Of a stretch of 43,653 bases of DNA, positions 2,877-42,066 are shown one piece after another (position 1 is the stretch's first letter; each line of letters opens with the position of its first letter). Source of the DNA: a virus; the IMG/VR virus record IMGVR_UViG_3300018719_000003, positions 64,001 to 107,653 of that record. One strand, written 5' to 3'. The notes under the pieces are model-generated. The model was not told the DNA's origin, made no database searches, and saw nothing but the letters and a program-made list of their open reading frames with translations. Both the position numbers and the translations under genes were made by a program.

Positions 2877-3101
2877 ATGACTATCGGAGCATCAGGACTT
2901 CCCGCCAGAATCCCTAAACCAGCAGTCGATCCACGATACTTGGCTAGGGTCAACTACGAGTTATCGGTTATCAATAAAACCAGTACTGAAACCCGTCCCG
3001 GTCAAAATTGGGACAACGAGAAAGGGCAGCATGATCAGGCACTGCTGGCTCACTACAAGGTAGCCTTCGAGAAACTGAAGGCAGATGCGATGGCGGCTTA
3101 G
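2877..3101 (+). CDS. Small protein sharing the C-terminal motif of the Thr-rich protein
   Basis: 74 residues, start ATG preceded by AGGAAAA. The central part (ARVNYELSVI, KTSTETRPGQNWD, then a charged helix ending LLAHYKVAFEKLKAD) is nearly the same as the last 45 residues of the protein encoded just upstream, without the Thr/Ser-rich arm. The two therefore probably bind the same partner or assemble together; one looks like the free domain of the other. Function unknown. A hairpin terminator follows at 3139-3165. Confidence 0.65.
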   Translation: MTIGASGLPARIPKPAVDPRYLARVNYELSVINKTSTETRPGQNWDNEKGQHDQALLAHYKVAFEKLKADAMAA

Positions 3102-3138
3102 AGTCAGCTGGATGAGTGAGTAAGCTAATTAGGGTTGC

Positions 3139-3165
3139 AGCCGCCTGTTATGGGCGGTTTTTGTT
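3139..3165 (+). terminator. Intrinsic terminator, first copy of a duplicated element
   Basis: CCGCC / GGCGG stem with loop TGTTAT followed by TTTTT. It ends the 1571-3101 transcription unit. A similar sequence including the upstream AAGCTAAT and AGGGTT recurs at 4898-4942. Confidence 0.7.
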
Positions 3166-3386
3166 GTGGGTATTTCCAAGAATAAGCTGGGGCGTGAATA
3201 TATTTTTGACATACTCACCGCGAGTAGAGCGACGGTGATTCTTGACGCTTCATCGACTGGCGCTACCGAAGTAGTCTTACTCTGTCTCGACGTACATTTA
3301 GAGTCGTGGCAATGCCCTATCCCGACTTTTTCTATACAGTTGATTCTCAATTAACCTTGACAGGTGTAGACACCCAGGAGCTTTAC

Positions 3387-4001
3387 ATGAATACGGCGAT
3401 CGCACAACATCTAAAAATTGCTAGCAATTTAGTTTTAGAAGTCCAGGAATGGGCAAAAGTGTTGTGGTGTCGAATTCAAGGAATGCGTCCTAGATTTGTA
3501 AGCAAGGTTGCTTTGATTATGCAAGCTCAAAAACTTTTGTTGACCCACTATAAGCGTAAAGGTATTTACGCTTATCTGTGCCCACTGACTATTAATGGTT
3601 CAGAAATCCAGCGAGGTGAATTTTACAACGGCAATCCTTTAGATGAAGGAGACAACAAAGAGCGCTACTACAGAGGCAAATCTGCAACGGTTGAGATTGA
3701 CTTGGGTAAATTTGATAACGGGCTTTATGAATATAAAGAAGCGGTTGGGCATAAAGAACGTCGTGGATACATTCAAGTAACGGCAGGGCAAATCGAAAAA
3801 GAATGGGAAACCCAGCAAGAAATGATTGATGAGGTTAATCCCATTCCTACATTGCCTGAATTAGAAGGAACACCTAAACAAGTAGCTTGGGCAGAAAGTA
3901 TTCGGGAAAAAGCAATCCGCAATGGACTCTCCCTAGAGAAGGCAGCCTCTGTAACCAGCGCAAAACTTTGGATCGACAATCGGAGCAAGTTTAGTGCCTA
4001 G
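3387..4001 (+). CDS. Hypothetical protein with C-terminal KQVAWAESIR motif
   Basis: 204 residues from the ATG at 3387, chosen because AGGAG lies 6 nt upstream; the frame is open further upstream but without a ribosome site. The N-terminal half (VLEVQEWAKVLWCRIQG) is helical; the middle is charged and Tyr-rich (KERYYRGKSATVEIDLGKFDNG). The C-terminus has TPKQVAWAESIREKAIRNG, a short motif I recall from phage and plasmid proteins without a defined function. The next gene overlaps by 8 nt. First gene of a plus-strand group 3387-4778. Confidence 0.6.
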   Translation: MNTAIAQHLKIASNLVLEVQEWAKVLWCRIQGMRPRFVSKVALIMQAQKLLLTHYKRKGIYAYLCPLTINGSEIQRGEFYNGNPLDEGDNKERYYRGKSATVEIDLGKFDNGLYEYKEAVGHKERRGYIQVTAGQIEKEWETQQEMIDEVNPIPTLPELEGTPKQVAWAESIREKAIRNGLSLEKAASVTSAKLWIDNRSKFSA

Positions 4002-4191
4002 TAACCCGGATAGTCGAATTGAGTTTAGGGATATAGAAGCCAAATCAAAAATTCGTAAATTATCCCCTCAGCTCAATCCCAACAGTTTCGCCAAAGCGGC
4101 ATTGAACAAAGTAATCGAGCTAGGAAAGTGCCCTGTCTGTCACAAATCTTTTGCAAGTTGTGAGTATTTTCGGAAATTAGAAGAGGAGTAA
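3994..4191 (+). CDS. Small protein with CPVC zinc-ribbon-like motif
   Basis: 65 residues from a GTG start that overlaps the end of the previous gene by 8 nt. The C-terminal half has CPVCHKSFASC, possibly one metal-binding knuckle with three cysteines. The N-terminal half is polar. The next gene begins 5 nt after the stop, with GAGGAG lying inside the 3' end of this gene. No recognised family. Confidence 0.55.
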   Translation: MPSNPDSRIEFRDIEAKSKIRKLSPQLNPNSFAKAALNKVIELGKCPVCHKSFASCEYFRKLEEE

Positions 4192-4196
4192 AACCG

Positions 4197-4778
4197 ATGG
4201 AAACAGCAGCAGCAACTTGGAGCGATCGCAAAGCAAGCCTTAAAAGAGAAATTTGCAATTATTTCTTCAATCAAGGGGCAACAAAAGAAGCTGTCATCAA
4301 AGCCTGCGGACACATTAAGCTATGGGCAGAAGTTCAAACTGAATTGGCTAATGTAGATGGCAAGATGACGCCATCCACCCCTAAAGATGATTACATAACA
4401 GACAGCTTTTCTCAAACCCATAGAGCGAAAGTAGCAAACTGGATTAATCAATACGCTGAACTTCACCAAGAAGCGCTCAATTATTTAGAATCTCAGCGCA
4501 ATTATGGAGAGAAAACCAACTGGGCACGAGATGACTTTGAACAAGAAGATTGGGAATCTACTCAACCAGACGGAGAGATTCAAGTCAAGAGTGATTGCGT
4601 TGAGGTTTATGCTTTTGGATACAAAGAAGGGTTTGCCCAGTCACTACCAAAACAAGGAAAAAAGTCTATCGGAAAAACAAACGATGGTTACAAGTGGGAA
4701 TATCCTTTAAGCGCTATAGACGCGCTCAAGAAAATAGGACTACCTGTACTTTACGCAATTGATACCAAGAAGGGTTGA
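4197..4778 (+). CDS. Hypothetical protein
   Basis: 193 residues; strong ribosome site (GAGGAG) before the ATG. Soluble and acidic in the middle (RDDFEQEDWESTQPDGE), with an alpha/beta-looking C-terminus (VEVYAFGYKEGFAQ, DALKKIGLPVLYAIDTKKG). No catalytic motif or membrane segment is visible. Last gene of the 3387-4778 group; an intrinsic terminator follows within 25 nt. Confidence 0.6.
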   Translation: METAAATWSDRKASLKREICNYFFNQGATKEAVIKACGHIKLWAEVQTELANVDGKMTPSTPKDDYITDSFSQTHRAKVANWINQYAELHQEALNYLESQRNYGEKTNWARDDFEQEDWESTQPDGEIQVKSDCVEVYAFGYKEGFAQSLPKQGKKSIGKTNDGYKWEYPLSAIDALKKIGLPVLYAIDTKKG

Positions 4779-4798
4779 AAGACTCTCTTAGCAAGCAA

Positions 4799-4821
4799 GG
4801 GCGGGTATCACCGCTCTTTTT
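4799..4821 (+). terminator. Intrinsic terminator
   Basis: GGGCGG / CCGCTC stem (one G-U pair), 6-nt loop, then TTTTT. Ends the 3387-4778 unit. Confidence 0.7.
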
Positions 4822-4826
4822 GTTTG

Positions 4827-4870
4827 ATGAACTACTCCGACCTCAACGCTAGCAGGTCGGAGTAGTTCAT
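4827..4870. repeat. 17-bp perfect inverted repeat (long hairpin)
   Basis: ATGAACTACTCCGACCT at 4827-4843 and its exact reverse complement at 4854-4870, loop of 10 nt. It lies between two terminators in a convergent region, about 5 nt after the U-tract. Function unknown. Confidence 0.85.
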
Positions 4871-4897
4871 GTACGGGGGTTTTACGCATTACAACTC

Positions 4898-4942
4898 GTA
4901 AGCTAATAGGGTTTTCGTCGCCTGTAATGGGCGGCTTTTTGT
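4898..4942. terminator. Terminator, second copy of the duplicated element
   Basis: GTCGCC / GGCGGC stem with loop TGTAATG followed by TTTTT; upstream GTAAGCTAATAGGGTT matches the copy at 3120-3165. It lies at the end of the convergent minus-strand gene 4946-5287. Confidence 0.6.
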
Positions 4943-4945
4943 TGC

Positions 4946-5287
4946 CTACTTTTCCACTTTCTCAAACCGCCAACAGTTACTTGCTCCTACTCCGTAGGGA
5001 CTGCTAACCACTCCCATAAACATTTCAAAGGGTCGTGCCCATACCTTTAGGTACTCTTTAGCGTTCAGTCCTTCTTTGCGGACAGTATAAGCGGGACAAC
5101 CTTCTTGAACTAGCAAATACTCATTTGTCTCTGTGTGTTTAGCAGTGACTGGGAGGTAGGGTAACTCATCTCCATAGATCACTATCTTGCCGTCAAGCTT
5201 ATCTTCTGCGATCGCAATAATCACATACTCGTTGCCCTTGAAGTGTTGCCACTTTTCCCCTGGTCGTGGGTGATTTCTGTGCATCAT
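4946..5287 (-). CDS. DUF1653-like protein
   Basis: 113 residues. The opening GEKWQHFKGNEYVIIAIA and the closing VWARPFEMFMGVV match the DUF1653 pattern (xHFKGxxY ... WxRPxxMF). Between them lies an insert of about 30 residues compared with the usual short domain. DUF1653 proteins are small beta-rich proteins of unknown function. Start overlaps the stop of the iron-permease-family gene by 4 nt (ATGA). Confidence 0.65.
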   Translation of the reverse strand: MMHRNHPRPGEKWQHFKGNEYVIIAIAEDKLDGKIVIYGDELPYLPVTAKHTETNEYLLVQEGCPAYTVRKEGLNAKEYLKVWARPFEMFMGVVSSPYGVGASNCWRFEKVEK

Positions 5288-5643
5288 TCCTCGTCCCGCA
5301 GTTGCTTAAATTCCTCTTGCAACTCGTCAACCACTTCGTCGGCTTTCTCTTCCAGAGCAATCACCTTATTTCGGGCATCGCCGCTTGAGCGAATGATTTC
5401 ATCCAGCTTGAGCTGCATTGCGCGGGAGTCTCTGTTTTGGGTGTTTTGGATTAGAAAAATTGCCAATCCGGTTGATATTGTGCTAGTGGTATTTATAAAT
5501 AATTGCCAGTCAGAGGAAAAATCTAGGAAGAATCCCGATATTCCCCAAGCGACGGTAATCCCAACCGCAATCGCAAAAGTCCGAGGCGAACCCATCACTA
5601 ATGCAGACTTACGGGCAAACTTAGCAAACGTATCATGTCTCAT
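5284..5643 (-). CDS. Low-affinity iron permease family membrane protein
   Basis: 119 residues. Two hydrophobic helices (about 23-40 and 48-65) are followed by a family signature: FLIQNTQNRDSRAMQLKLDE, then a coiled-coil tail. The INTTSTISTGLAIFLIQNTQNRD region is the diagnostic part of PF04120. That family is named for iron uptake, but transport by the short bacterial forms is poorly supported; a phage accessory or membrane-remodelling role is possible. It is translationally coupled to the DUF1653 gene. Confidence 0.7.
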   Translation of the reverse strand: MRHDTFAKFARKSALVMGSPRTFAIAVGITVAWGISGFFLDFSSDWQLFINTTSTISTGLAIFLIQNTQNRDSRAMQLKLDEIIRSSGDARNKVIALEEKADEVVDELQEEFKQLRDEE

Positions 5644-5663
5644 CGAAAACTTTTTATTCTATT

Positions 5664-5756
5664 TTAGCCCGACTCCTCCTCCCAAATAGAGAGTATCCTC
5701 ACCAGCACACTAACGCCGCTAATCCCCATCGCTATTAACCCGATTAGAATCACCAT
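5664..5756 (-). CDS. Possible small one-helix membrane peptide
   Basis: 30 residues from the ATG at 5756: a hydrophobic segment (MVILIGLIAMGISGVSVLV), then RILSIWEEESG. Lies 20 nt upstream of the iron-permease-family gene on the same strand. No clear ribosome site, so real expression is uncertain. Confidence 0.35.
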   Translation of the reverse strand: MVILIGLIAMGISGVSVLVRILSIWEEESG

Positions 5757-5845
5757 GAAGTTTTATGAAGTTATGACACTTCAAGCTACAGGTGAGGCTA
5801 TGTGGCGTCAGGATTGCACAGTTACAATTGTGGATATTTAGCGTT

Positions 5846-6739
5846 ATGCAGAAGTGCATATATACAAAAGTGAAAATCGGTAAATTTGTCAAATGGCAGA
5901 GTCAAGTTGGGACAGCCATTGGCAAGGTAGAGGAAATTCGCCACAATACTGCCTCAGTCAGGGTATACCGAGACAAGAAGCCATCCGACGCAATTGTCAG
6001 CATCCCCCTCGACTACCCAGTTGAAGACTACGATGACTATGACGAACGCGCCTCCTATCCTCGGATGCCAACCGACGACGAGTTCGACCTAATCAAGATG
6101 TACACCCCGGACGTAGCAGCAGAGGAGTTGGTGGTATACACAATTCGTGCTGCTAATAATCTGGTGAATCGGTCAGGGTGGAAATTCAACCGTGAGGGAT
6201 TGGAGGAGTTAGCGAAGTTTGCTGTAGGGGTGCGATCGCAAGGTTTGCCGTTGCCATTTGAAAGCGATCACGATTGGGAATCAGTGGACAAAACCTGCGG
6301 ATTCGTATTTGACGCAATAGTAGTATCCGAACCCGCCCCCGCCGATATCTTGGAGCAAGCGGGAAATACTGATATCAACAAAGAAGTAGGGCAAAAAGAA
6401 GGCTTAATATCTCTGGAGTTTAAAGTAGCTTTCCCCCGCTACGGAGAAACAGCGGAAGTCATTAGATTAGGATGCAGAGGGTTCGTGTCGATGGGCAGAT
6501 TTATTGCGACTGATTTGATATGCCCAATCGATGGCAAGAGTTTCTATGATCCGGAATGCCCGTACCTGCCACCCGATCCTATGTGGGGGTACGCCCCTGG
6601 CATGAAATTCGAGGGGAGTGACGGTCAAGAGTATGAGGTTGCTCCCTACTCAATCTATGCTGGACTAATTGACTTAGGAGAATGCTCGTGGGTCACTATT
6701 CCGAAGTTACCTGGGGTTGGGGTAGTGAGGAGCAAATAA
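5846..6739 (+). CDS. Hypothetical protein, weakly prohead-protease-like
   Basis: 297 residues if started at the ATG at 5846; the frame opens earlier with a GTG at 5792 and no good ribosome site for either. The segment YTIRAANNLVNRSGWKFNRE ... LPFESDHDWESVDKTCGFVF resembles the core of caudoviral prohead proteases (a strand, a region with Asp-His, then a Gly-rich turn), but no clear Ser nucleophile motif was found. The C-terminus has CPIDGKSFYDPECPYLPPDP. The assignment is weak. The stop codon lies inside an 18-bp inverted repeat. Confidence 0.5.
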   Translation: MQKCIYTKVKIGKFVKWQSQVGTAIGKVEEIRHNTASVRVYRDKKPSDAIVSIPLDYPVEDYDDYDERASYPRMPTDDEFDLIKMYTPDVAAEELVVYTIRAANNLVNRSGWKFNREGLEELAKFAVGVRSQGLPLPFESDHDWESVDKTCGFVFDAIVVSEPAPADILEQAGNTDINKEVGQKEGLISLEFKVAFPRYGETAEVIRLGCRGFVSMGRFIATDLICPIDGKSFYDPECPYLPPDPMWGYAPGMKFEGSDGQEYEVAPYSIYAGLIDLGECSWVTIPKLPGVGVVRSK

Positions 6740-6791
6740 TTAATCTTAGATAAATGATTGACAAGCCCAGATAATTTATCTAAGATTAATT
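6738..6791. repeat. 18-bp perfect inverted repeat overlapping a stop codon
   Basis: AATTAATCTTAGATAAAT at 6738-6755 and its exact reverse complement at 6774-6791, spacer 18 nt. AT-rich, no U-tract. It may stabilise mRNA 3' ends or act as a regulator site for the gene at 6828. Confidence 0.8.
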
Positions 6792-6827
6792 CAGTCCGGC
6801 AAACAAGCGTATAAAGAGGACGCGCAA

Positions 6828-7547
6828 ATGGTCTTATTAAGAGAGCAGCTATTCCCAAAAATAAGGCTTACTGTTTCACCTTGCCCTTGGCATGAAACAG
6901 CAAGGATTGCCCACAAGACAGCATTTGAAAAGCGTCTTGAGCGGTGGAAGCAGAAAGCTACAGAGTACGAGAAAGAGACGGCAAAAACGCCTTTCCTTGT
7001 GGAAACAGTTTTTGTTGAGATTATCGAGCTTAAAACTAAATGCGCTTATGAGGTTGGGCAGGTTATTGAGGTTCCGGCTCTTGAGATTAAGCCAGCTCTG
7101 AAGGTTGCTGGGGCTGAATACTCTGATTGCTGGATTAAAGGAATCATCAAAGAAATTAAACCTGTCCAAAAGGGTGAACGGATAGTCTATCCAGGCTGGG
7201 AATTAGAGCCTGAGCCTACTTATGACCCCTTTGAGTTTTCCGTGCATGATGCTGTACGGAAGATGCAGCAGTTAATTTGTGAGGTATGCCCATTCGCGAC
7301 GTGGGAAGGATTTTGGACAAAATATCCCGAAGCGATGGGGTATGACGATGTTGTGTTTACTGAAACAAGTGAGCGCCATTTAGGCAACATTGTGCATCTA
7401 GAATCAGGTGTTGGGTATCGAGTTGAAGTGAAGGGCGAACAGCTTGTGTTATGCAAGTTTAAAATCGAGCGCTATCATTTTTATTCTTCTGTTTCTAGCG
7501 CAGGGTATTCAGGTATTGGTTCTTGGTCAGACAAAGGATATTGGTAA
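6828..7547 (+). CDS. Hypothetical protein
   Basis: 239 residues, ATG preceded by AGAGG. N-terminal charged helix (FEKRLERWKQKATEYEKETA), then beta-rich segments (FLVETVFVEIIELKT, EVGQVIEVPALEIKPALKV) and an aromatic, Ser/Gly-rich tail ending YSGIGSWSDKGYW. No recognised domain, no membrane helix. Nothing points to a catalytic function. Confidence 0.55.
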   Translation: MVLLREQLFPKIRLTVSPCPWHETARIAHKTAFEKRLERWKQKATEYEKETAKTPFLVETVFVEIIELKTKCAYEVGQVIEVPALEIKPALKVAGAEYSDCWIKGIIKEIKPVQKGERIVYPGWELEPEPTYDPFEFSVHDAVRKMQQLICEVCPFATWEGFWTKYPEAMGYDDVVFTETSERHLGNIVHLESGVGYRVEVKGEQLVLCKFKIERYHFYSSVSSAGYSGIGSWSDKGYW

Positions 7548-7570
7548 TGTTGGGATTAGGTAGCATGGGT

Positions 7571-7600
7571 CATTAGCTGAATTCTATTTATCAGCTAATG
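7571..7600. repeat. 10-bp inverted repeat in intergenic gap
   Basis: CATTAGCTGA and TCAGCTAATG with a 10-nt spacer. Sits 23 nt after the stop of the preceding gene. Hairpin without a U-tract on the plus strand. Confidence 0.6.
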
Positions 7601-7675
7601 CAAAAAAACAAATTCAAAACAACAGTTCGTTGTGGCTGCAATGGATGCCGTCGCAATCGTACAGGAGCTAACAAC

Positions 7676-7798
7676 ATGAAAGCGTACATTCTACGCCAGT
7701 CAAATCGCAAAAGTTGGCATATTGCCAAACAAATGCTAAAAGATTGTGACTTTGAAGAAGTAAGTATTCCTCTAATTAGTGCGGGATACACGGATTAG
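7676..7798 (+). CDS. Small hypothetical protein
   Basis: 40 residues from the ATG at 7676 (AGGAG 8 nt upstream): MKAYILRQSNRKSWHIAKQM and a short acidic tail. The frame is open to an ATG at 7598 that would add a Cys-rich extension (RCGCNGCRRNR), but that start overlaps the hairpin and has no ribosome site. Lies directly upstream of the Nudix/Csx3 gene. Confidence 0.45.
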   Translation: MKAYILRQSNRKSWHIAKQMLKDCDFEEVSIPLISAGYTD

Positions 7799-7888
7799 TT
7801 GAATAGCGGTCGCGCCTAATGGAGGTCTAGCAGCAGTCGGAGGCTGGCGATCGCATTGAGAGGCAGTACCCCTCTCATCATTGCAACT

Positions 7889-8737
7889 ATGCAACTAATT
7901 GAAAGCCTACCCGTAAAACTTTACGGTCAGGGTGAAGCGAAAACTATTGAGCATCTTTTGGAAGAAATCGAGTCGGGGGAGTGCCTGATTCAGTGGCAGG
8001 CTTATCACCCTGTCAGAGTGATCAATGTTGTGGTAGCGAACGTTTTCACGCTGGACGCCAAGCAGTATCTGATTGAAGAGAAGCAAGTTTTCTCTGATGG
8101 CAGAGTTCGCCAGCGCCAAGAGAAAGATGGCTCTCCAAAGCGGGGAATATCTGAAAAGATGCAACCTAAAGAGGTGTCTCAAGATGCGGTTCTTAGGGCA
8201 GTAGAGGAAGAGCTGGGAATAGACCCGGATTATGTCCGGACAGCTTGCCTAGGAATGAATGCGGAGGAGAGTGAATCTCCTTCGTATCCAGGGTTGTTGA
8301 CGAGATACGTGCGGCATAAGTACGACGTATTTATAGAGCCGGAGGCTTATAAAGCTGAAGGCTATGTAGAGGTTCAGGATGACAAAACAACTTACTTTGT
8401 GTGGAGAAAAGTACCAATGAAAAACATTGAGCTTGTAGCCAGCGATCGCGGTGACTTCACCTTACTGGAGATCGGCTTACCCAACGAGGTTTGTGAACCC
8501 GCAGACTTGAAAGGGTTAGAACTGCCCAATTGCGACACAACTAAGGGTATCGTGCTTTCAGGTCGCGCTCCGGTGTGGTTGTTTGCCTGCCTAGCGCATC
8601 AAGCCCATATCTATAAATGGGTCGGAACTTTCGATCCGAGGTTAGAAGTTGATGGGGTCAAAGGGGCGGCTGTTGTGGTTGAGTCGCACGGCGGTAATTA
8701 TCGAGCGGGGGATGTTATTCCTGTCCCAAAGCAGTAG
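7889..8737 (+). CDS. Nudix-like / Csx3-like (Crn3 ring nuclease) fusion protein
   Basis: 282 residues from the ATG at 7889 (a TTG at 7856 would add 11). The middle has a Nudix-box-like helix (EVSQDAVLRAVEEELGI, i.e. Ex7RxxxEExGI, with the canonical RE as RA and an insertion before the box). The last 75 residues match Csx3: CDTTKGIVLSGRAPVWL, LAHQAHIYKWVGTFDPRL, AAVVVESH and AGDVIPV. In archaeal Csx3, known as the ring nuclease Crn3, a His and Asp of the equivalent LAH...DPRL region cut cyclic tetra-adenylate; both are present here. A phage copy would be expected to quench type III CRISPR signalling. The Nudix half might act on nucleotide products or another signal. The family call for the C-terminus is good; substrates are inference. 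Confidence 0.75.
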   Translation: MQLIESLPVKLYGQGEAKTIEHLLEEIESGECLIQWQAYHPVRVINVVVANVFTLDAKQYLIEEKQVFSDGRVRQRQEKDGSPKRGISEKMQPKEVSQDAVLRAVEEELGIDPDYVRTACLGMNAEESESPSYPGLLTRYVRHKYDVFIEPEAYKAEGYVEVQDDKTTYFVWRKVPMKNIELVASDRGDFTLLEIGLPNEVCEPADLKGLELPNCDTTKGIVLSGRAPVWLFACLAHQAHIYKWVGTFDPRLEVDGVKGAAVVVESHGGNYRAGDVIPVPKQ

Positions 8738-23166: not shown

Positions 23167-23571
23167 TTAAGCATGATGCGGGTCGTTGATATACTCAGTA
23201 ATCTTAGCCGTCGTTACTTTGCCCGTGGCGTCATAAAAGTAAGAATGCGTCCAGAGTGTAGGTAGCTTAAGCAGATGAGAAAACTCCTTCCTAAGTAACC
23301 GAGATGAACGCCCCTTGAACGCCTTAACAACTGAGTTAATCGGGGTCTTTGGGTCGTACTCCACCAACAAGTGAACATGATCTGGAGCAATTTCCATCGC
23401 CCTTATAATCCACCCTCTTTCCACTGCTACATCTGTAAGAATCTGATTTAACCTAAGCCTGACCTCTCCCACGAGGACAGGCTTTCTGCGTTTAGGTATC
23501 CAAACTAAGTGGACATTCGCCATTCCTACTGAATGTCTCGTGCGATTATATTGTCGTTCTTGAGTATTCAT
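23167..23571 (-). CDS. tnpA: IS200/IS605 TnpA, HUH Y1 transposase
   Basis: 134 residues, usual length. The HUH motif is in APDHVHLLVEYDP and the catalytic Tyr in AKITEYINDP near the C-terminus; KAFKGRSSRLLRKEF and LWTHSYFYDATG are family signatures. It excises and inserts the element as single-stranded DNA at subterminal hairpins. Looks intact, so the element may be active. Confidence 0.9.
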   Translation of the reverse strand: MNTQERQYNRTRHSVGMANVHLVWIPKRRKPVLVGEVRLRLNQILTDVAVERGWIIRAMEIAPDHVHLLVEYDPKTPINSVVKAFKGRSSRLLRKEFSHLLKLPTLWTHSYFYDATGKVTTAKITEYINDPHHA

Positions 23572-23634
23572 TTACTTAGAAATGCAGTACACTCTTATTG
23601 TATATGTGTAGCGTCCTTCAACAGGAGTAAGTTT

Positions 23635-25017
23635 TTGCCTCGTTCCCAAACCCCATCATTTGTTGCCACTCTCCCGCTAAAAACCTCTAGCTCCGACGAG
23701 AAGGAACTAGAGGCAAGATTCAATGCAGCACAGAACTTATACAACGCTGTCCTGAGTGAATCTAAAAAGCGACTGGAATTGGTACGCAATAGTGAGGCTT
23801 ATCAAGAGGCGATAAAGACTCCCAAGAAGGATAAGAAGCTACGCTCTGAACGATTTAAAACAGCAAGAGCTGCTTATCGCTACTCCGAATATGACCTGCA
23901 TGAGTTCGCAGCGTGTACAGCTAAGGCATCAAAATGGATAGCCCAAAAAGTAGATGCTCAGGCTGCTCAGACAATTGCGACTCGTGCTTTTAAAGCATCT
24001 GAGAGGATGTTAGTTGGCAATGCCAAAAAGGTTAGGTTCAAAGGGAAGGGGCGCTACCGTTCAATTGAAGGGAAAACTAATAAGCAGGGTATTCGATTCA
24101 AGGATGAGTGTTTAGTTTGGGGGAAACTCCAAATCCCCATTCTCATTGACAAGAATGACCCCGTCATCCTGCACGCCCTTGGTTCTCCCATTAAGTTCTG
24201 TCGGATTGTCAGGAAAATCATTAAAGGCAGACAACGATGGTATATCCAGCTTGTCTGCGAAGGGTTTCCTTATGTCAAAACAGAGAACAAATTAGGGAAG
24301 GGTGTTGTTGGGGTTGACCTCAATGTTTCCGCTGCTGGAATTGTTTCTGACCAGAAAGCATCTCTTTCTGAATTCTGCTCAGAGCTTAATCAGCGAGAGC
24401 AGGAAATTAAGAGACTTCAACGACAAAACTCTCGACAACTTCGAGCTAACAATCCCCAGAATTATGAGCCAGACTTTAAGACTCGACGGGGGAACAAGGT
24501 TGTTACTAAAAGAGGAAAAGTCAAGAAGGGTTCTAAACAGTGGAATCGCAGTAGGCGCTACCTCAAAACCCAAGCCAAAAAAGCAGAGATTCAGAGGCGT
24601 CAACAAGAGCACCGGAAATCCCTGCACGGTCAACTAGTAAATGAGGTTATTCGCCAAGGCAACCACTTCAAGATGGAAAAAGTTTCTGTCAAGGCGTGGC
24701 AGAAAAACTGGGGGAAACAGATTGGTTATAAAGCCCCAGGTGAATTTCAATCCCGCTTAGTTCGCAAGGCTGAAAGTGCTGGCGGACGGGTGGACAAGTT
24801 TTCTTGCCAAAAAACAAAACTCTCCCAAACTTGTGTGTGTGGGAGAGTGGAGAAAAAGTCGCTGTCTCAGCGTATTCATATTTGTGAATGCGGTGTAAAA
24901 GTTAAACGAGACGTACTGAGCGCATTTTTGGCAAGAAGCGTCACTGACGATAGTCTCATCATGCCCTTAGTCCTTGATGACTGGGGGAGGTTGGAAGCAA
25001 CGCTCAGGCAGGTATGA
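23635..25017 (+). CDS. tnpB: TnpB, RNA-guided RuvC-type nuclease
   Basis: 460 residues from a TTG at 23635, with AGGAG 9 nt upstream; the frame extends upstream into tnpA as shadow. RuvC residues are present: GVVGVDLNVSAAG (Asp), FKMEKVSVKAWQ (Glu) and VKRDVLSAFLAR (Asp), plus the zinc ribbon CVCG...CECG. TnpB cuts DNA guided by an RNA made from the element's right end, promoting retention of the IS. Divergent from tnpA. Intact. Confidence 0.9.
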   Translation: MPRSQTPSFVATLPLKTSSSDEKELEARFNAAQNLYNAVLSESKKRLELVRNSEAYQEAIKTPKKDKKLRSERFKTARAAYRYSEYDLHEFAACTAKASKWIAQKVDAQAAQTIATRAFKASERMLVGNAKKVRFKGKGRYRSIEGKTNKQGIRFKDECLVWGKLQIPILIDKNDPVILHALGSPIKFCRIVRKIIKGRQRWYIQLVCEGFPYVKTENKLGKGVVGVDLNVSAAGIVSDQKASLSEFCSELNQREQEIKRLQRQNSRQLRANNPQNYEPDFKTRRGNKVVTKRGKVKKGSKQWNRSRRYLKTQAKKAEIQRRQQEHRKSLHGQLVNEVIRQGNHFKMEKVSVKAWQKNWGKQIGYKAPGEFQSRLVRKAESAGGRVDKFSCQKTKLSQTCVCGRVEKKSLSQRIHICECGVKVKRDVLSAFLARSVTDDSLIMPLVLDDWGRLEATLRQV

Positions 25018-32830: not shown

Positions 32831-34195
32831 ATGTACGCACCAAAGCAAAATCTAGTCTCAGTCAACTTTGGTGGCGGACAAACCCTGCCACCGCAGAACG
32901 TTGATGCAGAAGAAGCCATCCTAGGCGGCATATTGCTTGACCCGAACGCAATAGGACGAGTGGTTGACATCCTTGTCCCGGAGGCGTTTTACATATCGCA
33001 CCATCGAGAGATATACAAAGCGGCGGTTACGCTTCACGCCGCAGATCGCCCAACTGACTTACTTTGTGTTTCAACTTGGCTTTATGACCATGACTTGATT
33101 GAGAAGATTGGCGGACAAAGTAAGCTCGTTAGCCTAGTAGATCGGACGGTCACAGCGTTGAATATAGACCGCTTTGCTGCTCTTGTGATGGACAAATATC
33201 AGCGGCGCAAGCTCATCCACGCTGGCAACGAGATAGTTCAACTGGGATATGAAACTTCAGTTGAGCTGGACGAGGTAATAAATCAAGCCGAGCAAAAAGT
33301 GTTTGACCTTACCCAAGGAGATGCAGTCGCGCCGGAGATTGAGCAGCCGATAGATATCCTCATTCGCATCTACGACCAATTAAGCGCTGTCAAGCCGAAA
33401 GGACTACCAACCCAGATTTATGACCTTGACAGGTTGATTGGTGGGCTGAAACCCAAAAAGCTGTATATCGTTGCTGGACGTTCCGGTATGGGCAAGACCC
33501 AGTTAGCCGTCAACCTAGCTGCCCAAGTTTTAAAAAGCCGCCAACCCGTTGTCTTTTTCTCGGCTGAGATGGACAGAGATGAGCTGATGACAAGAGTGCT
33601 TGCCTGGGAATCGGGTGTAGACGCCAAGAAAATTGAAGAATGCACTCTGGATAGCCAAGAGGAGTTTACCTGCCTTACAGAGGCAATCAACCGCCTCTCA
33701 GATGTTCCCTTGTATCTAGATGACACTACTGGTTCTACGCTTACCCCAGTTCGCATTCGTTCAGCTATCCGACGTGCTACTTCAATGTATGGAAAGCCAG
33801 GGCTAATCGTACTGGACTACTTGCAACTCCTAGGCGATGAAGCGGGTAACACGAATCGAGTTACTGAGCTGGATAAGCTGGCGAATGCTTGCAAAGCGAT
33901 CGCTAAGGAATTTGATGTCCCATTCGTTGCGCTAGCTCAAATCAATCGAGCAGCGGACAGCCAAGCAAACAAGCGTCCTGTAATTTCTCAACTTCGAGAA
34001 TCAGGGGCAATTGAGCAAGCGGCTGATGTAATTCTGCTGTTGTACCGCGACGAATATTACAACACCAATACTCCTGATAGAGGGATTTGTGAAGTCATTG
34101 TCGGGAAGCAAAGAAGCGGTGCAACTGGAACTGTCAAAACAATTTTTCAACCTGAAACAAGCCGATTTCTAAACATCGCGCAAAGAGAGTTTTAG
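32831..34195 (+). CDS. dnaB: Replicative DNA helicase DnaB
   Basis: 454 residues, normal length. N-terminal DnaB domain (LPPQNVDAEEAILGGILLDP), linker helix, then RecA-like core: GRSGMGKTQLAVNL (Walker A, about 216-229), GLIVLDYLQLL (Walker B, near 316), and LRESGAIEQAADVILLLYRD (DnaB4). Unwinds the replication fork. Two bases after the loader gene stop. Phage copy means replication does not depend on host DnaB. Confidence 0.95.
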   Translation: MYAPKQNLVSVNFGGGQTLPPQNVDAEEAILGGILLDPNAIGRVVDILVPEAFYISHHREIYKAAVTLHAADRPTDLLCVSTWLYDHDLIEKIGGQSKLVSLVDRTVTALNIDRFAALVMDKYQRRKLIHAGNEIVQLGYETSVELDEVINQAEQKVFDLTQGDAVAPEIEQPIDILIRIYDQLSAVKPKGLPTQIYDLDRLIGGLKPKKLYIVAGRSGMGKTQLAVNLAAQVLKSRQPVVFFSAEMDRDELMTRVLAWESGVDAKKIEECTLDSQEEFTCLTEAINRLSDVPLYLDDTTGSTLTPVRIRSAIRRATSMYGKPGLIVLDYLQLLGDEAGNTNRVTELDKLANACKAIAKEFDVPFVALAQINRAADSQANKRPVISQLRESGAIEQAADVILLLYRDEYYNTNTPDRGICEVIVGKQRSGATGTVKTIFQPETSRFLNIAQREF

Positions 34196-34401: not shown

Positions 34402-34808
34402 CACCCCCTGAATACGAAACCAGAATTCAGGAAATCAACAGACGACTGGGCAAGTTAGCACCCCCAGCAAAAAATGGGAAAAAAGAAACCCAAGCAGAGA
34501 AAAAAGTACGAGAGGATTACGAAGCTGACAAAGCCAATCTAGAAAGTCAGCGAGATTTGGTCAAAAAATACGCGACTATCTACAACCAAATTCACGTTGG
34601 TGATGGTGTGGCGACTGAAGGTAAAACGGGCGTGATTATCCAGAAAACTATCAACGTCGGTGGGCTTCCTCAAGTGTGGGTTCACTGGGGAGTTTCGGCT
34701 ATTCCTTACCCAGAATATCCCGCGATATCAGGCGAATGGTGTCTTCAGTTCTTCCCAGCGTGTGGGTTGGACGAGGTTGTGGAAGTTCAGAGAGAGAGGG
34801 TTGCGTGA
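34398..34808 (+). CDS. Coiled-coil hypothetical protein
   Basis: 136 residues. Charged helical N-terminus (ETRIQEINRRLGKLAPPAKN; AEKKVREDYEADKANLES) and a beta-rich C-terminus (VGDGVATEGKTGVIIQKTIN, VWVHWGVSAIPYPEYPAISG). The second part looks like an SH3-like fold. Stop overlaps the C5-MTase ATG (TGATG). Unknown function, possibly an accessory to the methyltransferase. Confidence 0.5.
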   Translation: MTPPEYETRIQEINRRLGKLAPPAKNGKKETQAEKKVREDYEADKANLESQRDLVKKYATIYNQIHVGDGVATEGKTGVIIQKTINVGGLPQVWVHWGVSAIPYPEYPAISGEWCLQFFPACGLDEVVEVQRERVA

Positions 34809-35356
34809 TGCCGACTAGTGCAGCATTATTCGCTGGTGGTGGAGGCGACACAGAAGGAGCGATCGCCGCTAATTACACCCCACTTTGGGCGATTGAGTCA
34901 GATCCAAAAGCCGCCGCTATTTACCGCAAAAGATTTCGCCAAGTTCAACTGATAGAAGCCGATGTCACAAGTCTCTCAACTGAGTTTATTTGCTCTCTCC
35001 CGGTTCCAGACGTTCTCATATGGGGTTCACCTTGCCCAGACTTTTCAATGGCTGGCACAAGAGCCGGATTTGATGGCACTCGCGGACGCTTGTTTTTTGA
35101 AGGAGTCCGATTTCTTCGACTTCAAAAGCCTAAGAGCTTCGTGTTTGAGAACGTTGATGGACTCCTTAGCCACGACAACGGGCAAACCTTCCAGAAGGTC
35201 ATCTCTGCGTTTGGACAATTGGGGTATGTGGGGACATGGCAAGTACGAAATGGCAACCGTCATGTCCCACAAAGCCGAGTTAGGGTCTTCTGTGTGGGTT
35301 ATTACCGGGAATGTATCAGCGACACTGCCGAAATCTTACAAGAAAACGCTTGCTGA
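34808..35356 (+). CDS. C5-cytosine DNA methyltransferase, N-terminal part (frameshifted)
   Basis: Open to a TGA at 35354-35356. Contains motif I (ALFAGGGGDTEGA), motif IV (WGSPCPDFSMAGTR, with the catalytic Cys), motif VI (FVFENVDGLL) and motif VIII (QSRVRVFCVGYY). Motifs IX and X are missing from this frame but present in the +1 frame that continues (35292-38369). A shift somewhere in 35293-35356 is needed; an AAAA run at 35343-35346 is the simplest place for an indel. Without the shift the enzyme lacks its target recognition domain. Confidence 0.8.
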   Translation: MPTSAALFAGGGGDTEGAIAANYTPLWAIESDPKAAAIYRKRFRQVQLIEADVTSLSTEFICSLPVPDVLIWGSPCPDFSMAGTRAGFDGTRGRLFFEGVRFLRLQKPKSFVFENVDGLLSHDNGQTFQKVISAFGQLGYVGTWQVRNGNRHVPQSRVRVFCVGYYRECISDTAEILQENAC

Positions 35357-38300
35357 ATGTTTAGCCAGTCAGGGTGTACCGGTCAAGGGAAGGGCAGACA
35401 AAGGAATCTGGTCGGTTAAAGAATCGCCCTCACTAGTCTCGTCTAACTGGATGGGATATCTAGATGTTAACCGAGGAAAGGATGGAGGCGGCGCAGGGTT
35501 TGCGATTCTTGATCCCATTGCCATTAATTCGGCAACAGGGGAGCCGACAGACGAGGCTTTTTCGCTTCGCCACAGTTCTCACAAGCAAGGCAGAGGCAAT
35601 TTAGCTCACCCTAATACTTACGTTGTCTACAAGGCTGCTGGCGGTGATCGCATTTACTCCGAGAATGCTCCAACATTGCGATCGCTGACTAACACCAACG
35701 GACACCAGGGCGGCAGTGGTGCAATGAAGGTTCGTGAGCTGAATGGTGAGTTTTATTACGAGCGCCCTATGACAGCCGCCGAGTACGAGAACTGTATGGG
35801 GTGGAAGCCGGGATGCACTACCACGGGAATTACGGCAGACGGCAAAGAGATTGAGTTAAGCGAAACCCAGCGCAAACGGGTTTTGGGGAACGGAATTATC
35901 CCGCAAGAGATCACAGAGCTATTGACTGCATTAAGACCTTTTCTTGAAGCGGAACCGGAGCCAGTCGAGTACCAGTGGGGTGCTGACGGTGTGGGTCGCG
36001 GCAACTGTGCAGGTCTGAACATCTGGGCAGTCTGCGGAATTCCCAAGGGAATCGTTATCGACGGGGTGAGGGATTCCAAGAAAACTAATCGACAACAGCG
36101 TGTAAATCTAGTCGCCAAGATTCACGACCAATGCGTTATCGGGTTGGGAGTCGCCACACCAGTTGAGATTGATGAGCTAGGGATAAACCAGGCTGAGAAA
36201 TTGGCACTATCCAGAGCGATCGCCTATGTCCGCTCCCAAGGGCATGAGCCAACAGGCTTGATAGGCGACTTGGCAATGCCCCCTATCGAGGGAGTTCTCA
36301 CCAAGAGAGAGAAGTCGGCTGACGACAAGTACCCAGAAGCGTCAGCGGCATCTATTGCTGCCAAGTATGCCCTGGACTTGTACTGGGAGCGGGTCAATGA
36401 GCAATATCCGGACTATGGCTTCTTGGCTCATGCCGGATACGTACAGCCTCCACATTTAGAGGCGATCAACAAGCTTGGATTGATACCCCATGTCCACAGG
36501 CTTTCTTATAAGCCATGCAGAGAAAAAGCGACTGCGACAACAGCCGCCGAATCATTAAACACATCAGGAGGATACACGATGGTTGCTACATTTTCAGGAC
36601 TTGATGATTATTCCAGCTTCCCTTCCAACGAATCGGCTGAGTCTAAATCAGAGAAAGCCCGACTGATTCGTGATCAGATACTCGCCGTTGACTCCGAGGC
36701 TGACTACACCGAGCTTCGCAGCAATCCGAACCTGACACGGGAGCAGTTGAACTGGGTGCGGGAGAACCTAATCACCAAGGAAGAACGTAAAACCTTAGCC
36801 CAAAGAATCCGAGCCAATCCTCTACCTAAACCTGTAGCTGTTGGAGATGTGGTGTGCGATCGCTCTGGTCAAGTTGTCGGCACTGTTATTAAGGTGATGG
36901 TGACATTTTTGGAGATTGGCGACACCAAATTAAGCTGGGAGGATTTTGAGGCACTAGGCTACACAAAACAGGAAATCGAGAGAGAACAAAATCAGACTGA
37001 AGTCGCTGAGTCTCCTATTCCCACTGAACTAGTCGCCACATCTGACGCAGAGGAATTGAGCCAAATTGAAACCGAGATAGAAGAAATTCAGAAATCGGCT
37101 TGGGCTGAAATTGGACAACGGCTGCTAAGGATTCGTGAAGGGAAACTGTATAAGGCAAAAGGCTACTCAAATTGGGATGCTTACTGCCGCGATCGCTGGA
37201 ACTATGGCAAGAGTTATGCCAACGACCTAATCAACGCAGTCAAAGCCCAAGAGATTTTGACCGGAACTGCGGTCATTTTGGATAACCCCAATCAAGCTGT
37301 TCCGATTCGCAAGATGGTAAATGCCGGGATTGAGTCTAGCCAGATTCAGGAATTGGTGCAGGAAGTAGCAGAGTCAGGAAATCTGACAGCCGAAACAATC
37401 GAGCAAGCGGCTCAAAACAAAGGATTGCTGCCCACGACTAAACCCAAAAAACAACCCACCCCAATCGTTGCCGCTGCTCAGTCGGTTGGCTTAAGCGGGA
37501 AGGAGACACAGCAGCTGCCAGACGTTCCACCCAATGCAGACATCCCGCCTGACAGCCAACCCAGCGCTTTGTATAATTGCTGCTCACAGCCTGAGTTGAA
37601 GATTTTCTGTGAACAGCACACCCAGGATGCGATCGCCCAACTCAAGTCATTGGATTGGGAGAAGCGCTTTGAATTGCGTGGTATCTGGACAGAATTTGAA
37701 GCATGGTTAGCTACCTGTGCATTTCATCACCAGATTGATGCTCAAGGTGTGCTGACGCTGATGGAGGCGGATAGTAAAGCCAAGATTAAGTGGCTTGAGT
37801 CTGAGGTATCTCGACTGATGGCAGAGAACGAAGACTTACGGCTAAGATTGCAAAAGCCAACGTCTACTCGAACCGACGAGTGGTACACGCCACCTGAGTT
37901 TATTGAAATGGCAAGGGAGGTTATGGGCAGTATTGATCTTGACCCCGCTAGCAATGAACTGGCACAGTCCTGGATTAAAGCTAAGAAATATTTCACCAAA
38001 GATGACGATGGTTTGCGCTGTGAATGGTCTGAAAATGTGTGGGTAAATCCTCCTTATGGGCGCTCTGTCGAGGATTGGCTAGTTGATGCGGTTAATCGCT
38101 ATGGGAACGGCGACATCAAGTCTGCTATCCTCCTTCTCAACCGCACGGGCGCAGCCTGGTATAAAGCCAGGACAAAGGAAGTTACCGCAATTTGCGAAGT
38201 TTATAAGCGGATAGCTTTCATTGATGAGAATGGACAACGCCAGTCATCGCCGCGCTACTACAACGATTTTCTCTACTTGGGCAAGGATGTCGAGAAGTTC

Positions 38301-38369
38301 GTAGAAGTGTTCAGTGCGATCGGTGACGTGACGGTGATGCAGCAATCGAGCCAACAGCAGGCGGCTTAG
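35292..38369 (+). CDS. C5-MTase C-terminus + RNase HII-like domain + N6-adenine MTase in one long frame
   Basis: Continuous frame (open from 34962; before about 35293 it is shadow) with no own start here. (1) Target recognition and motif IX/X: YERPMTAAEYENCMGW, RKRVLGNGIIPQEI. (2) From about 35950 to 36520 an RNase HII-like domain: WGADGVGRGNCAG, DSKKT, VEIDELGINQAEKLALSRA, SAASIAAKYALD, YPDYGFLAHAGY and H-x-HRLSYKPC; the catalytic DE is DG here. (3) An internal ATG at 36579 with AGGAGG starts a helical region, then a Dam-type N6-MTase (DEWYTPPEF, IDLDPASNE, VWVNPPYGRS). Probably translated partly as separate 596-residue protein. Confidence 0.75.
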   Translation: MWVITGNVSATLPKSYKKTLAECLASQGVPVKGRADKGIWSVKESPSLVSSNWMGYLDVNRGKDGGGAGFAILDPIAINSATGEPTDEAFSLRHSSHKQGRGNLAHPNTYVVYKAAGGDRIYSENAPTLRSLTNTNGHQGGSGAMKVRELNGEFYYERPMTAAEYENCMGWKPGCTTTGITADGKEIELSETQRKRVLGNGIIPQEITELLTALRPFLEAEPEPVEYQWGADGVGRGNCAGLNIWAVCGIPKGIVIDGVRDSKKTNRQQRVNLVAKIHDQCVIGLGVATPVEIDELGINQAEKLALSRAIAYVRSQGHEPTGLIGDLAMPPIEGVLTKREKSADDKYPEASAASIAAKYALDLYWERVNEQYPDYGFLAHAGYVQPPHLEAINKLGLIPHVHRLSYKPCREKATATTAAESLNTSGGYTMVATFSGLDDYSSFPSNESAESKSEKARLIRDQILAVDSEADYTELRSNPNLTREQLNWVRENLITKEERKTLAQRIRANPLPKPVAVGDVVCDRSGQVVGTVIKVMVTFLEIGDTKLSWEDFEALGYTKQEIEREQNQTEVAESPIPTELVATSDAEELSQIETEIEEIQKSAWAEIGQRLLRIREGKLYKAKGYSNWDAYCRDRWNYGKSYANDLINAVKAQEILTGTAVILDNPNQAVPIRKMVNAGIESSQIQELVQEVAESGNLTAETIEQAAQNKGLLPTTKPKKQPTPIVAAAQSVGLSGKETQQLPDVPPNADIPPDSQPSALYNCCSQPELKIFCEQHTQDAIAQLKSLDWEKRFELRGIWTEFEAWLATCAFHHQIDAQGVLTLMEADSKAKIKWLESEVSRLMAENEDLRLRLQKPTSTRTDEWYTPPEFIEMAREVMGSIDLDPASNELAQSWIKAKKYFTKDDDGLRCEWSENVWVNPPYGRSVEDWLVDAVNRYGNGDIKSAILLLNRTGAAWYKARTKEVTAICEVYKRIAFIDENGQRQSSPRYYNDFLYLGKDVEKFVEVFSAIGDVTVMQQSSQQQAA
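35293..35356 (+). other. Frameshift interval in the C5 methyltransferase
   Basis: Both frames are open here. Motif VIII ends the first frame; motifs IX/X need the second. The TGA at 35354 follows TTGC, not the prfB-type CTTTGA slip, so a sequence error or mutation in the A4 run at 35343 fits at least as well as programmed shifting. Confidence 0.6.
36566..36581 (+). promoter_or_regulatory. Internal ribosome binding site and ATG inside the long frame
   Basis: AGGAGG (36566-36571), 7-nt spacer, ATG (36579), in frame with the long ORF, directly after the RNase HII-like domain. It would yield a separate 596-residue N6-MTase protein. Confidence 0.7.
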
Positions 38370-38446: not shown

Positions 38447-40315
38447 TTATCCCCGTAGGCTTAAGTACTCATCCCACGCATTGTTGATCGCCTGCATATG
38501 CTCAAGCGCTTGCGGTTCGTCTGACACATCAGGATGGTAGGTTTTAGCCAACTCCATATAGCTAGCCTTTACTTCACTGTGACCAGCCCCACTAGCTACG
38601 CCCAGCACTGCCCACCAAGGCTCATTAACCCACTTGAATATGGGTTGCTGTACTTCACCAAATTCTAGGCGTTTGTGATGCCTTAGCCAGGATTGGTGAT
38701 ATCTGGACTTGGCTAGCGACTCCAAGTACTCAAAATATTCACGCTTTTTCTTCTTAGAGGGTCGCTTACCCAACACTGCAAATGCGTGCCAAGCATCAGG
38801 CGGGATGTGCCCAAACTCTTTGAGGAACCTTTCGACTGCTACATCAGGCGATAATCTCTCCTTGAAACATAGCCGTTTTTGCTCTCTTAAAAACTTAGCT
38901 TTTGTCTTTTCTAGTCCCAGCAAAAGTTCTACTAATTCAATATCAGCCGACGCTGCATCCTCGTCTTCATTCTTGGGAAACTCGTAGCCACAGCTAGGGC
39001 AAACTCGAACGAAAACTGAGATTATTTCATTACATTCTGGACACTCTTTTGTGGGTGATTTCCTCTCCTTTTCTTCCTGCTGTTTTTTCCACGCCTCTTC
39101 ACTAATGTCGTAGTTCTGATAATCACTAGGAGAACCAAGGCGCTTGGCATTATTACCGAAATCTAGGATTAGGTAGTCTGTCTTACCAGGATAAGTTCTA
39201 GCAGCGCGTCCAACTGATTGATGCCAGAGTGACTTAGATTTGGTGGGACGAACGAATAGAACAGCCGAGATATTTCTTACGTTAAAGCCAGTATTGAGTG
39301 TTCCTACAGACACAAGAACTTGAATCCGTCCTTCTTTAAGTGCCGTGAATTTCTCCTGCCTTTCGGCTTCGTTAGTTTCTCCAATAATCCAATCAGCCGC
39401 TACTCCTGCTTCTCTGAATGCCAAAGCCAGCTTTTCAGCGTGACGAACAGTGGCACAAAATGCGATCGCAATCCTATCCCCTGCCAGTCGCTTGTATTCC
39501 TTGACTACACCCTCTAGCGCCGCCTTAGTTGTACCTTGCTGCTCAACTTGGTCAACCCGATAATCGCCGTCTCTACCCAAGTCGATAGCAGTCAAGTCAA
39601 AAGTATTGCCAAAGCCAAATATTCGGCACGGCACAGCACGACCTGATTTGATTAACTCCGGAGCCTGCGGTGCGGTGACTACTTCGTCAAACCATTGCCC
39701 CATATACTCGGTCTTCTTGGTTCGCCACGGTGTCGCTGTTAGCCCCAGAATCGTTGCTCCGGTGGCTAGGTAGTAATCATGTAGCGCGATAGTGGCTTTG
39801 CGAAAAGAGGAGAAATGCGCTTCATCGATTATCACGACTCCCACCCCTTCACCTAGTAACTCTGGCACAGTCTGCTTTTTCAGGCGACTACCGACAGTAT
39901 CTAAGCTGGCGATGACTACCGTCGCACTTCTGTCAAACTTCCGGTTAGCCTGCAAGATGGTTGATTGCACACCTAGCGACTCAAATTCTTCTTGAGCCTG
40001 TTTGAGTAGACAGGTGAGGGGAACTAGGAAGAGGCAACGTGTCGGTTTTTTGGCTTTTTGGGTGGCATCGCGAATTATCCAACCTGCCATTACTGTCTTG
40101 CCAGTACCGCAAATCGCCACCAATAAAATGCGCTGAATTCCGTTACGGATCTGACCATAGATTTCCCGAACACAATTCTGTTGATCAGGGTGCAAATGGG
40201 TGATGATTTGCTTACTCGGTTTAGCCAGTCCACCTGTGACTGATTCGGGCTGAGGTTCGGGTGTGAACTGCTGTTGGAATAATGTGAGCTGAGTTGATTG
40301 TGTGGAGGTGAGCAT
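38447..40315 (-). CDS. DEAH-box superfamily 2 helicase with C-terminal J domain
   Basis: 622 residues from the ATG at 40315 (a TTG at 40372 would add 19). Walker A AICGTGKTVMA; motif II IIDEAH; motif III GLTATPWR; motif VI QSVGRAAR: a type III restriction/UvsW-like helicase. A zinc ribbon CPEC...CPSC follows the helicase core. The last 65 residues are a DnaJ domain: AVLGVASGAGHSEVKASYME and LAKTYHPDVSDEP with the HPD motif. Phage UvsW-like helicases aid recombination; the J domain may recruit host DnaK. Confidence 0.85.
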   Translation of the reverse strand: MLTSTQSTQLTLFQQQFTPEPQPESVTGGLAKPSKQIITHLHPDQQNCVREIYGQIRNGIQRILLVAICGTGKTVMAGWIIRDATQKAKKPTRCLFLVPLTCLLKQAQEEFESLGVQSTILQANRKFDRSATVVIASLDTVGSRLKKQTVPELLGEGVGVVIIDEAHFSSFRKATIALHDYYLATGATILGLTATPWRTKKTEYMGQWFDEVVTAPQAPELIKSGRAVPCRIFGFGNTFDLTAIDLGRDGDYRVDQVEQQGTTKAALEGVVKEYKRLAGDRIAIAFCATVRHAEKLALAFREAGVAADWIIGETNEAERQEKFTALKEGRIQVLVSVGTLNTGFNVRNISAVLFVRPTKSKSLWHQSVGRAARTYPGKTDYLILDFGNNAKRLGSPSDYQNYDISEEAWKKQQEEKERKSPTKECPECNEIISVFVRVCPSCGYEFPKNEDEDAASADIELVELLLGLEKTKAKFLREQKRLCFKERLSPDVAVERFLKEFGHIPPDAWHAFAVLGKRPSKKKKREYFEYLESLAKSRYHQSWLRHHKRLEFGEVQQPIFKWVNEPWWAVLGVASGAGHSEVKASYMELAKTYHPDVSDEPQALEHMQAINNAWDEYLSLRG

Positions 40316-40357
40316 TGCTGTGGAGTTGGGGTGAGGGGAAAGGAAGAAGGGGTTAGA

Positions 40358-40375
40358 GGGTTGGAATTCCAACCC
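40358..40375. promoter_or_regulatory. 18-bp perfect palindrome upstream of the helicase gene
   Basis: GGGTTGGAATTCCAACCC, between the stop of 40388-41215 and the helicase start. Perfect symmetry suggests a dimeric operator. Confidence 0.5.
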
Positions 40376-41307: not shown

Positions 41308-42066
41308 CTACGCTTCGCTCATCGGCTCTAATCGAATGTTGCAGTAGTCTTCCGTCTCTTCAACAATCACAGGTAAAAATTCTTGAGGGTAGACTTTGAT
41401 GTTTTCTGCCTGGTGATTAGTCCCAACGTATTTTGGTGCTGTCTTTGGTTCGCAGTTATATTGCAATCGCCAACGTGCTGCAACTTTGCGCCCAAGTACA
41501 CTGTCTTTACCTTTGGGGACGCGATAGCCGAAAGTTCCTACCCACTCAGTCACAGAGAGGAGCTTGTTTTCTTCTGGCTGACTTGTGCCCTCCATTATGT
41601 TTTTAGCCTCAGCCTGTACTGCCATTAGCAGTCGTTCGTCGTGACGCAACTCAAGCGTTTTGACTGCCAGTTCCATCACTCGGATTCGGTTCTCTTGGTT
41701 TAGTGGAGGTAGAGCTTTTTGCCCTGATTGGTTGCCTGGATCGTATTTGCCAGTTTTACGGATACTTGGCAGCACTTCTTCATAAAGCCAATCTTGGAAC
41801 GGTTGAGCATTGGGGCTGTTTGAGCGATTAATAAAAAAGTACAGTCCCGGCTCCAAAAGAGTTACAACGTCTTGCTCTCCACCAGGGGTCATAATTCGTT
41901 TAATACCCTTCCACTTTGCTGGCACTTTTCTTAGGTAGTTAGAGCGATTAGTTTTGGCGGCTTCAGGGTACAAGACATCAACAACATCATTAGCTACCCA
42001 TTCAGGTTTGTCCCATGTGCCAAGACAGAGGATATCTTTTTGCTCGAACTGAAAAACCTGTAACAT
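41308..42066 (-). CDS. BRO-N domain phage antirepressor
   Basis: 252 residues. BRO-N: DKPEWVANDVVDVLYPEAAK, LYFFINRSNSPNAQPFQDWL, YEEVLPSIRKTGKY. A coiled-coil linker (RIRVMELAVKTLELRHDERL) leads to a C-terminal domain (LSVTEWVGTFGYRVPKGKDS, KVAARWRLQYN) resembling an antirepressor KilAC/HTH part. Would antagonise a phage repressor or bind DNA during induction. Divergent from 42185; third antirepressor-type gene in the window. Confidence 0.8.
   Translation of the reverse strand: MLQVFQFEQKDILCLGTWDKPEWVANDVVDVLYPEAAKTNRSNYLRKVPAKWKGIKRIMTPGGEQDVVTLLEPGLYFFINRSNSPNAQPFQDWLYEEVLPSIRKTGKYDPGNQSGQKALPPLNQENRIRVMELAVKTLELRHDERLLMAVQAEAKNIMEGTSQPEENKLLSVTEWVGTFGYRVPKGKDSVLGRKVAARWRLQYNCEPKTAPKYVGTNHQAENIKVYPQEFLPVIVEETEDYCNIRLEPMSEA

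Follow-up and report, generated by a model that had tools for sequence, protein, structure and literature searches.

A C5 cytosine methyltransferase split over overlapping frames of a likely cyanophage genome and joined to an RNase HII-like domain that probably binds without cutting

How does a single reading frame of a viral genome come to hold parts of two DNA methyltransferases and an RNase HII-like domain, and what could such a protein do? The question is raised by a stretch of 43,653 nucleotides (the window) that forms the final 43.6 kb of an IMG/VR virus record of 107,653 bp. Megablast searches of phages and plasmids gave zero matches, as did exact-peptide scans with the RNase HII or the C5 C-terminal region of the window as queries. 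HIP1 octamers (GCGATCGC) are typical of cyanobacteria, and since the window and all seven related viral loci counted are rich in them (5.6–15 per 10 kb), the hosts of the window virus and of these loci are likely cyanobacteria. Upstream of the C5 methyltransferase region lie genes for a DnaD-like loader and a DnaB helicase. The features that matter for the argument are the following.

32831..34195, plus strand: DnaB-like replicative helicase (phrog_19, 2.9e-101), syntenic in the related phage L007
34808..35356, plus strand: alpha, N-terminal half of a C5 cytosine methyltransferase with motifs I–VIII, 182 aa (PF00145, 1.3e-45, profile positions 5–167 of 324)
34962..35356, plus strand: putative dual-coded stretch, where the +1 frame over alpha would encode an N-terminal extension of beta; the frame is open in each of the seven phages, and its translation resembles the nested beta of Streptococcus phage MM1
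35355..35963, plus strand: C-terminal part of beta with the target-recognition region and motifs IX and X (joined PF00145 match; PHROG methyltransferase profiles)
35970..36542, plus strand: RNase HII-like domain (PF01351, 5e-15, residues 340–519 of the 1135-codon ORF; AlphaFold; structure matches)
36566..36571, plus strand: Shine-Dalgarno sequence AGGAGG, preceding the ATG at 36579 (L007 counterpart AGGAGA)
36579..38369, plus strand: Dam-family N6-adenine methyltransferase, 596 aa (PF05869, 3.3e-15; Dam domain 37866–38297)

The frame of 1135 codons from which the original prediction started does exist (34962–38369), and it contains the target-recognition region and motifs IX–X of the C5 enzyme, the RNase HII-like domain and the Dam-family methyltransferase. 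The further claim that both methyltransferases lie in this single frame holds for Dam and for the C-terminal half of the C5 enzyme but not for C5 motifs I–VIII, which are read in frame 2 and end at 35356. Because these motifs are in a different frame from beta, the C5 enzyme is split and a single continuum is incorrect; a fusion of both methyltransferases in one frame is thus ruled out. Alpha starts with an ATG that shares bases with the stop codon of the preceding gene (TGATG), and homologues of alpha are 60–63% identical to it. Beta (P0002) starts with the ATG at 34962, stops immediately upstream closing its frame, and carries target recognition and motifs IX–X in residues ~186–331, with motif IX at ~35760 and motif X (GNGIIP) at ~35868–35912. 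When alpha and beta are joined, the PF00145 match runs over positions 5–289 of 324, and structure prediction of beta by itself yielded no confident model (pLDDT 37).

Is this split a property of the phages or an accident of one contig? Alpha and beta as queries turned up six homologous IMG/VR phages (L006, L007, L010, L011, L034 and L035), and in all seven, the window included, alpha stops after motif VIII and beta lies in the +1 frame. The possibility, raised beforehand, that homologues would have separate genes whose stops are missing here through assembly error therefore fails for the C5 split, and assembly error or a pseudogene as its cause is ruled out by the homologues. Moreover, the beta frame is open for at least 400 nt through alpha, that is through most or all of it, in each of the seven phages. 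In L006 and L007 it extends further upstream into recognisable families (phrog_3193 and phrog_11705), so that alpha is nested whole there; in L007 a frame of 1363 codons (4582–8670) spans the whole nested alpha, C5 beta, a region that is ParB-like by eye, and Dam.

Several measures suggest that the overlap is translated in both frames. Within the final 128 codons of alpha the beta frame has no stop in any of the phages, as compared to 1.0–3.7 expected from synonymous shuffles, with P values per phage of 0.004–0.30 and a product of 5e-11 under the assumption, not fully valid, that the phages are independent; in the control genes, three chromosomal C5 genes of cyanobacteria, the corresponding part has 6–10 stops, matching expectation. 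In addition, identity at fourfold-degenerate sites is 47% in alpha versus 30% in the non-overlapping part of beta, alpha being higher in 18 of 21 pairs, and between the window and L007 it is 57% in alpha versus 49% in Dam and 38% in DnaB. Protein similarity above a shuffled null was found in the +1 frame (z 6.2) and, as a control, in the +2 frame (z 3.6), and as the control is raised too, the excess in the +1 frame comes partly from shared ancestry. Furthermore, Streptococcus and gut phages with a single-chain C5 enzyme have an open +1 frame too, and for this reason an open frame is not in itself proof of a beta start within alpha. Dual coding of the alpha/beta overlap, for which the likeness to the nested beta of phage MM1 (below) also speaks, is well supported but not proven.

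A two-polypeptide C5 enzyme has known counterparts. According to one report (PMC3404938), the larger subunit of M.AquI from Agmenellum quadruplicatum contains motifs I–VIII and the smaller one the distal variable region and motifs IX–X, and M.EcoHK31I requires two polypeptides. The genes of the window show the same distribution of motifs: I–VIII in alpha, target recognition and IX–X in beta, an ORF of its own. It differs in that beta runs for ~400 nt through alpha in the +1 frame, the likeness to M.AquI being one of motif distribution, and in that beta is fused to the RNase HII-like and Dam domains. A restriction enzyme was not identified near the C5 genes of the window. The C5 methyltransferase would thus consist of two polypeptides of the M.AquI type, alpha and beta, which may reassemble into a single enzyme, as part of an overall explanation set out below to which we give an even chance.

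A second point of comparison is Streptococcus phage MM1 (L029, 2637–3062), in which the C5 gene is complete and the +1 ORF nested over it is annotated as C5 methyltransferase beta subunit; among the records listed this annotation of the nested ORF is found in MM1. The MM1 beta belongs to phrog_16143, a family that matches the cyanophage beta overlap with E values of 1e-5 to 3e-4 in four phages and weakly or not at all in three. Profile comparison of the cyanophage overlap with the MM1-type beta gives a probability of 97%, the excess over shuffled sequences being modest (z 1.7–3.7). Related nested +1 ORFs are widely conserved over the C5 methyltransferase genes of phages, with matches in 226 phage records, and stops are significantly avoided in loci L018–L028 and in MM1 (P 0.001). 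Nested position, sequence and start are thus similar to those of the cyanophage beta, whereas in MM1 alpha is full-length and the nested beta ends early and in the cyanophages alpha is truncated and beta supplies the C-terminal half. It could be imagined that a frameshift after motif VIII in an MM1-type gene gave rise directly to the cyanophage arrangement. If so, a long dual-coding overlap would be a recurrent way by which phages encode C5 methyltransferases, as the 226 records with a nested ORF suggest.

Alternatively, a full-length C5 methyltransferase could be made by +1 ribosomal frameshifting from alpha to beta, the overlap being a mere window for the shift. In line with this, alpha and beta are offset by +1 in every case, and PF00145 matches across the two joined halves. 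However, the contexts of the alpha stop differ among the five phages compared and a shared slippery sequence was not found among them. Frameshifting would also have no need of a beta frame that remains open long before any shift site and, in L006 and L007, reaches into recognisable families. As separate alpha and beta polypeptides moreover suffice in related C5 enzymes (PMC3404938), we regard frameshifting as improbable. Still less credible, indeed very improbable, is that gene decay or broken assembly has left the frame switch and the RNase HII variant behind as degenerate remnants. The window is one metagenomic contig and the frame switches inside a conserved enzyme, but seven phages share the split at 40–54% beta identity, and the active-site variant is conserved in a second virus (L039, below) at saturated synonymous sites.

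What is the RNase HII-like domain, and is it still a nuclease? Its assignment, made originally from the order of motifs, is confirmed by the PF01351 match (5e-15) and by an AlphaFold model from 19 rows (pLDDT 96, pTM 0.91), the best PDB matches of which are RNase HII chains (query TM 0.8–0.88). The catalytic positions are a D-G pair at 35985–35990, a middle Asp at 36267–36269 and a last Asp at 36321–36323. As noted from the start, the first pair is DG instead of DE, Gly standing in for Glu. The middle Asp, by contrast, is not displaced as had been thought: in HMMER and in a 19-sequence alignment the D of IGDLAMP falls on the column of the invariant catalytic D107, and in the model it comes directly after strand 4, so that the two alignments and the model rule displacement out. 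In the same 19-sequence alignment D14, D108 and D126 of the DEDD set are kept and the sole change is Glu to Gly; the domain has the fold of RNase HII but not its complete set of carboxylates. The Gly is confined to the window and L039, Glu being present in 54 of 54 other RNase HII rows of a tree, and the 107,653-bp record holds no second RNase HII that could supply the intact DEDD set elsewhere, as the original prediction had allowed for. In T. maritima RNase H2 the side chain of this Glu binds metal B and its backbone carbonyl metal A, mutation of the equivalent of Glu19 abolished activity in two archaeal enzymes, and the 2′-OH is read by GRG and Tyr163 (PMC3025331). The corresponding parts for 2′-OH recognition are present in the domain (G17-R18-G19, D43-S44-K45 and Y165 in the 19-sequence alignment). 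Compared to the bacterial enzymes of T. maritima and E. coli the domain thus shares fold, GRG, DSK, Tyr and three catalytic Asp, and differs in the Gly for Glu, in the loss of the Gly following the middle Asp, in a conserved block (NCAGLNIWAV) unlike ordinary RNase HII, in being joined to C5 methyltransferase parts and in its separate long branch.

The altered domain is not unique to the window. Whether the same fusion occurs in other cyanophages had been posed as a check, and the answer is mixed: the records of L006, L007, L010 and L011 lack the RNase HII insertion, but L039, a different HIP1-rich virus contig, joins the altered domain, 59% identical to that of the window, to another C5 methyltransferase. 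There, at 2980–4767, a protein of 596 aa carries the RNase HII-like domain at its N-terminus and a complete C5 methyltransferase in the remainder (PF00145, 2.1e-25), whereas in the window the domain lies C-terminal to the C5 part. Both share the DG pair, around which they are identical over a long run, and the IGDLAMP and REK-AD segments. Of the 111 identical residues 64 differ in codon and only 21 of 55 fourfold sites are identical, synonymous sites between the two domains being saturated; that the residues are identical despite different codons argues that selection maintains the altered protein. In the tree with the 54 other RNase HII rows the two sit together on a long branch (support 100/100). 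A search of 386 cyanobacterial-phylum genomes with the signature WGADGVGRGNCAGLNIWAV found no host copy of the altered domain, which together with the long branch led to the rejection of a host copy, and a further viral scan returned the L039 contig alone, so that two members of the subfamily have been found. The C5 methyltransferase of L039 has TQSC in motif IV instead of the usual PC, and a gene that is TnpB-like by eye lies directly upstream of the fusion gene.

These observations lead to the explanation to which, as a whole, we assign that even chance: a split C5 enzyme of cyanophages carrying, at the C-terminus of beta, a ribonucleotide-binding, nuclease-dead module of RNase HII fold that tethers the methyltransferase. 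As the metal-B Glu is lost and the parts for recognising a ribonucleotide in DNA are retained, the domain probably binds and does not cut, in line with the earlier suspicion of an inactive nuclease; loss of cutting with recognition kept is the outcome to be expected. Loss of the same catalytic residue in a second virus speaks for a kept binding module and probably not a decayed nuclease, and since the altered domain is conserved and has been joined twice to C5 methyltransferases, it is likely a nuclease-dead module for ribonucleotides or hybrids. While the phage replicates, it may hold the methyltransferase on DNA that contains ribonucleotides or carries primers; the DnaB gene adjoins.

Two other functions have to be weighed against such a binding module. 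The domain could be an active three-Asp ribonuclease that clears phage DNA of ribonucleotides, with the linked enzyme methylating the DNA at the same time. Three of four carboxylates are kept, and what metal A contacts at the Glu position is a backbone carbonyl, equally available with Gly (PMC3025331), but the archaeal mutants just mentioned were dead and Glu is found in every one of the other 54 rows, which makes activity unlikely. Or the domain could have a protein ligand in place of ribonucleotides, such as a partner from the replisome or RNA polymerase. The top fold matches include E. coli RNase HII chains of a transcription-coupled repair complex and the NCAGLNIWAV block differs from ordinary RNase HII, yet the GRG, DSK, Tyr and Asp residues would be needless without nucleic acid binding, and we give protein binding a low probability.

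More tentatively, and we would call it possible without expecting it, the ribonucleotide-binding module could be one of a conserved nuclease-dead RNase HII subfamily that senses ribonucleotides or RNA primers and, attached to either end of different methyltransferases, directs the C5 enzymes of phages to DNA that has just been replicated, the split enzyme being encoded in long dual-coding frames. Motif X of C5 enzymes lies against motif I, as in the structure of M.HhaI, and therefore the fusion positions in the window and in L039 would be spatially close. If true, a retired nuclease would link DNA methylation to the recognition of ribonucleotides or primers in DNA. The original prediction knew of no such fusion, and in the literature searched, the coverage of which was incomplete, we found neither an RNase HII–C5 methyltransferase fusion nor a precedent for a methyltransferase carrying a nuclease-dead RNase HII, nor a report of targeting by way of a retired nuclease.

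The last part of the frame resembles the phage Dam family in its domain match (55 bits versus the curated PF05869 cut-off of 28.1; residues 969–1112 of the 1135-codon ORF, 1e-14) and its NPPY motif, and differs in being open in frame with C5 beta, the two frames being continuous in the window and in L007. The 30 nt around the Dam start are nearly identical between these two phages, and with a strong ribosome-binding site ahead of it the N6-adenine methyltransferase probably has a translation start of its own as well; Dam could occur both as an independent polypeptide and fused to beta. In L011 the product of the gene after beta (6096–7442) matches 2OG-Fe(II) oxygenase (PF13532) and DUF488-N3a in a single protein.

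Elsewhere in the window, an element that looks like the IS200/IS605 type occupies 23167–25017, with divergent TnpA-like and TnpB-like genes. A DNA helicase is encoded on the minus strand at 38447–40372; its C-terminal region, beginning near residue 582, has matches in other viral families and is J domain-like by eye. An anti-repressor-like gene (phrog_130, 7.8e-24) lies on the minus strand at 41308–42066.
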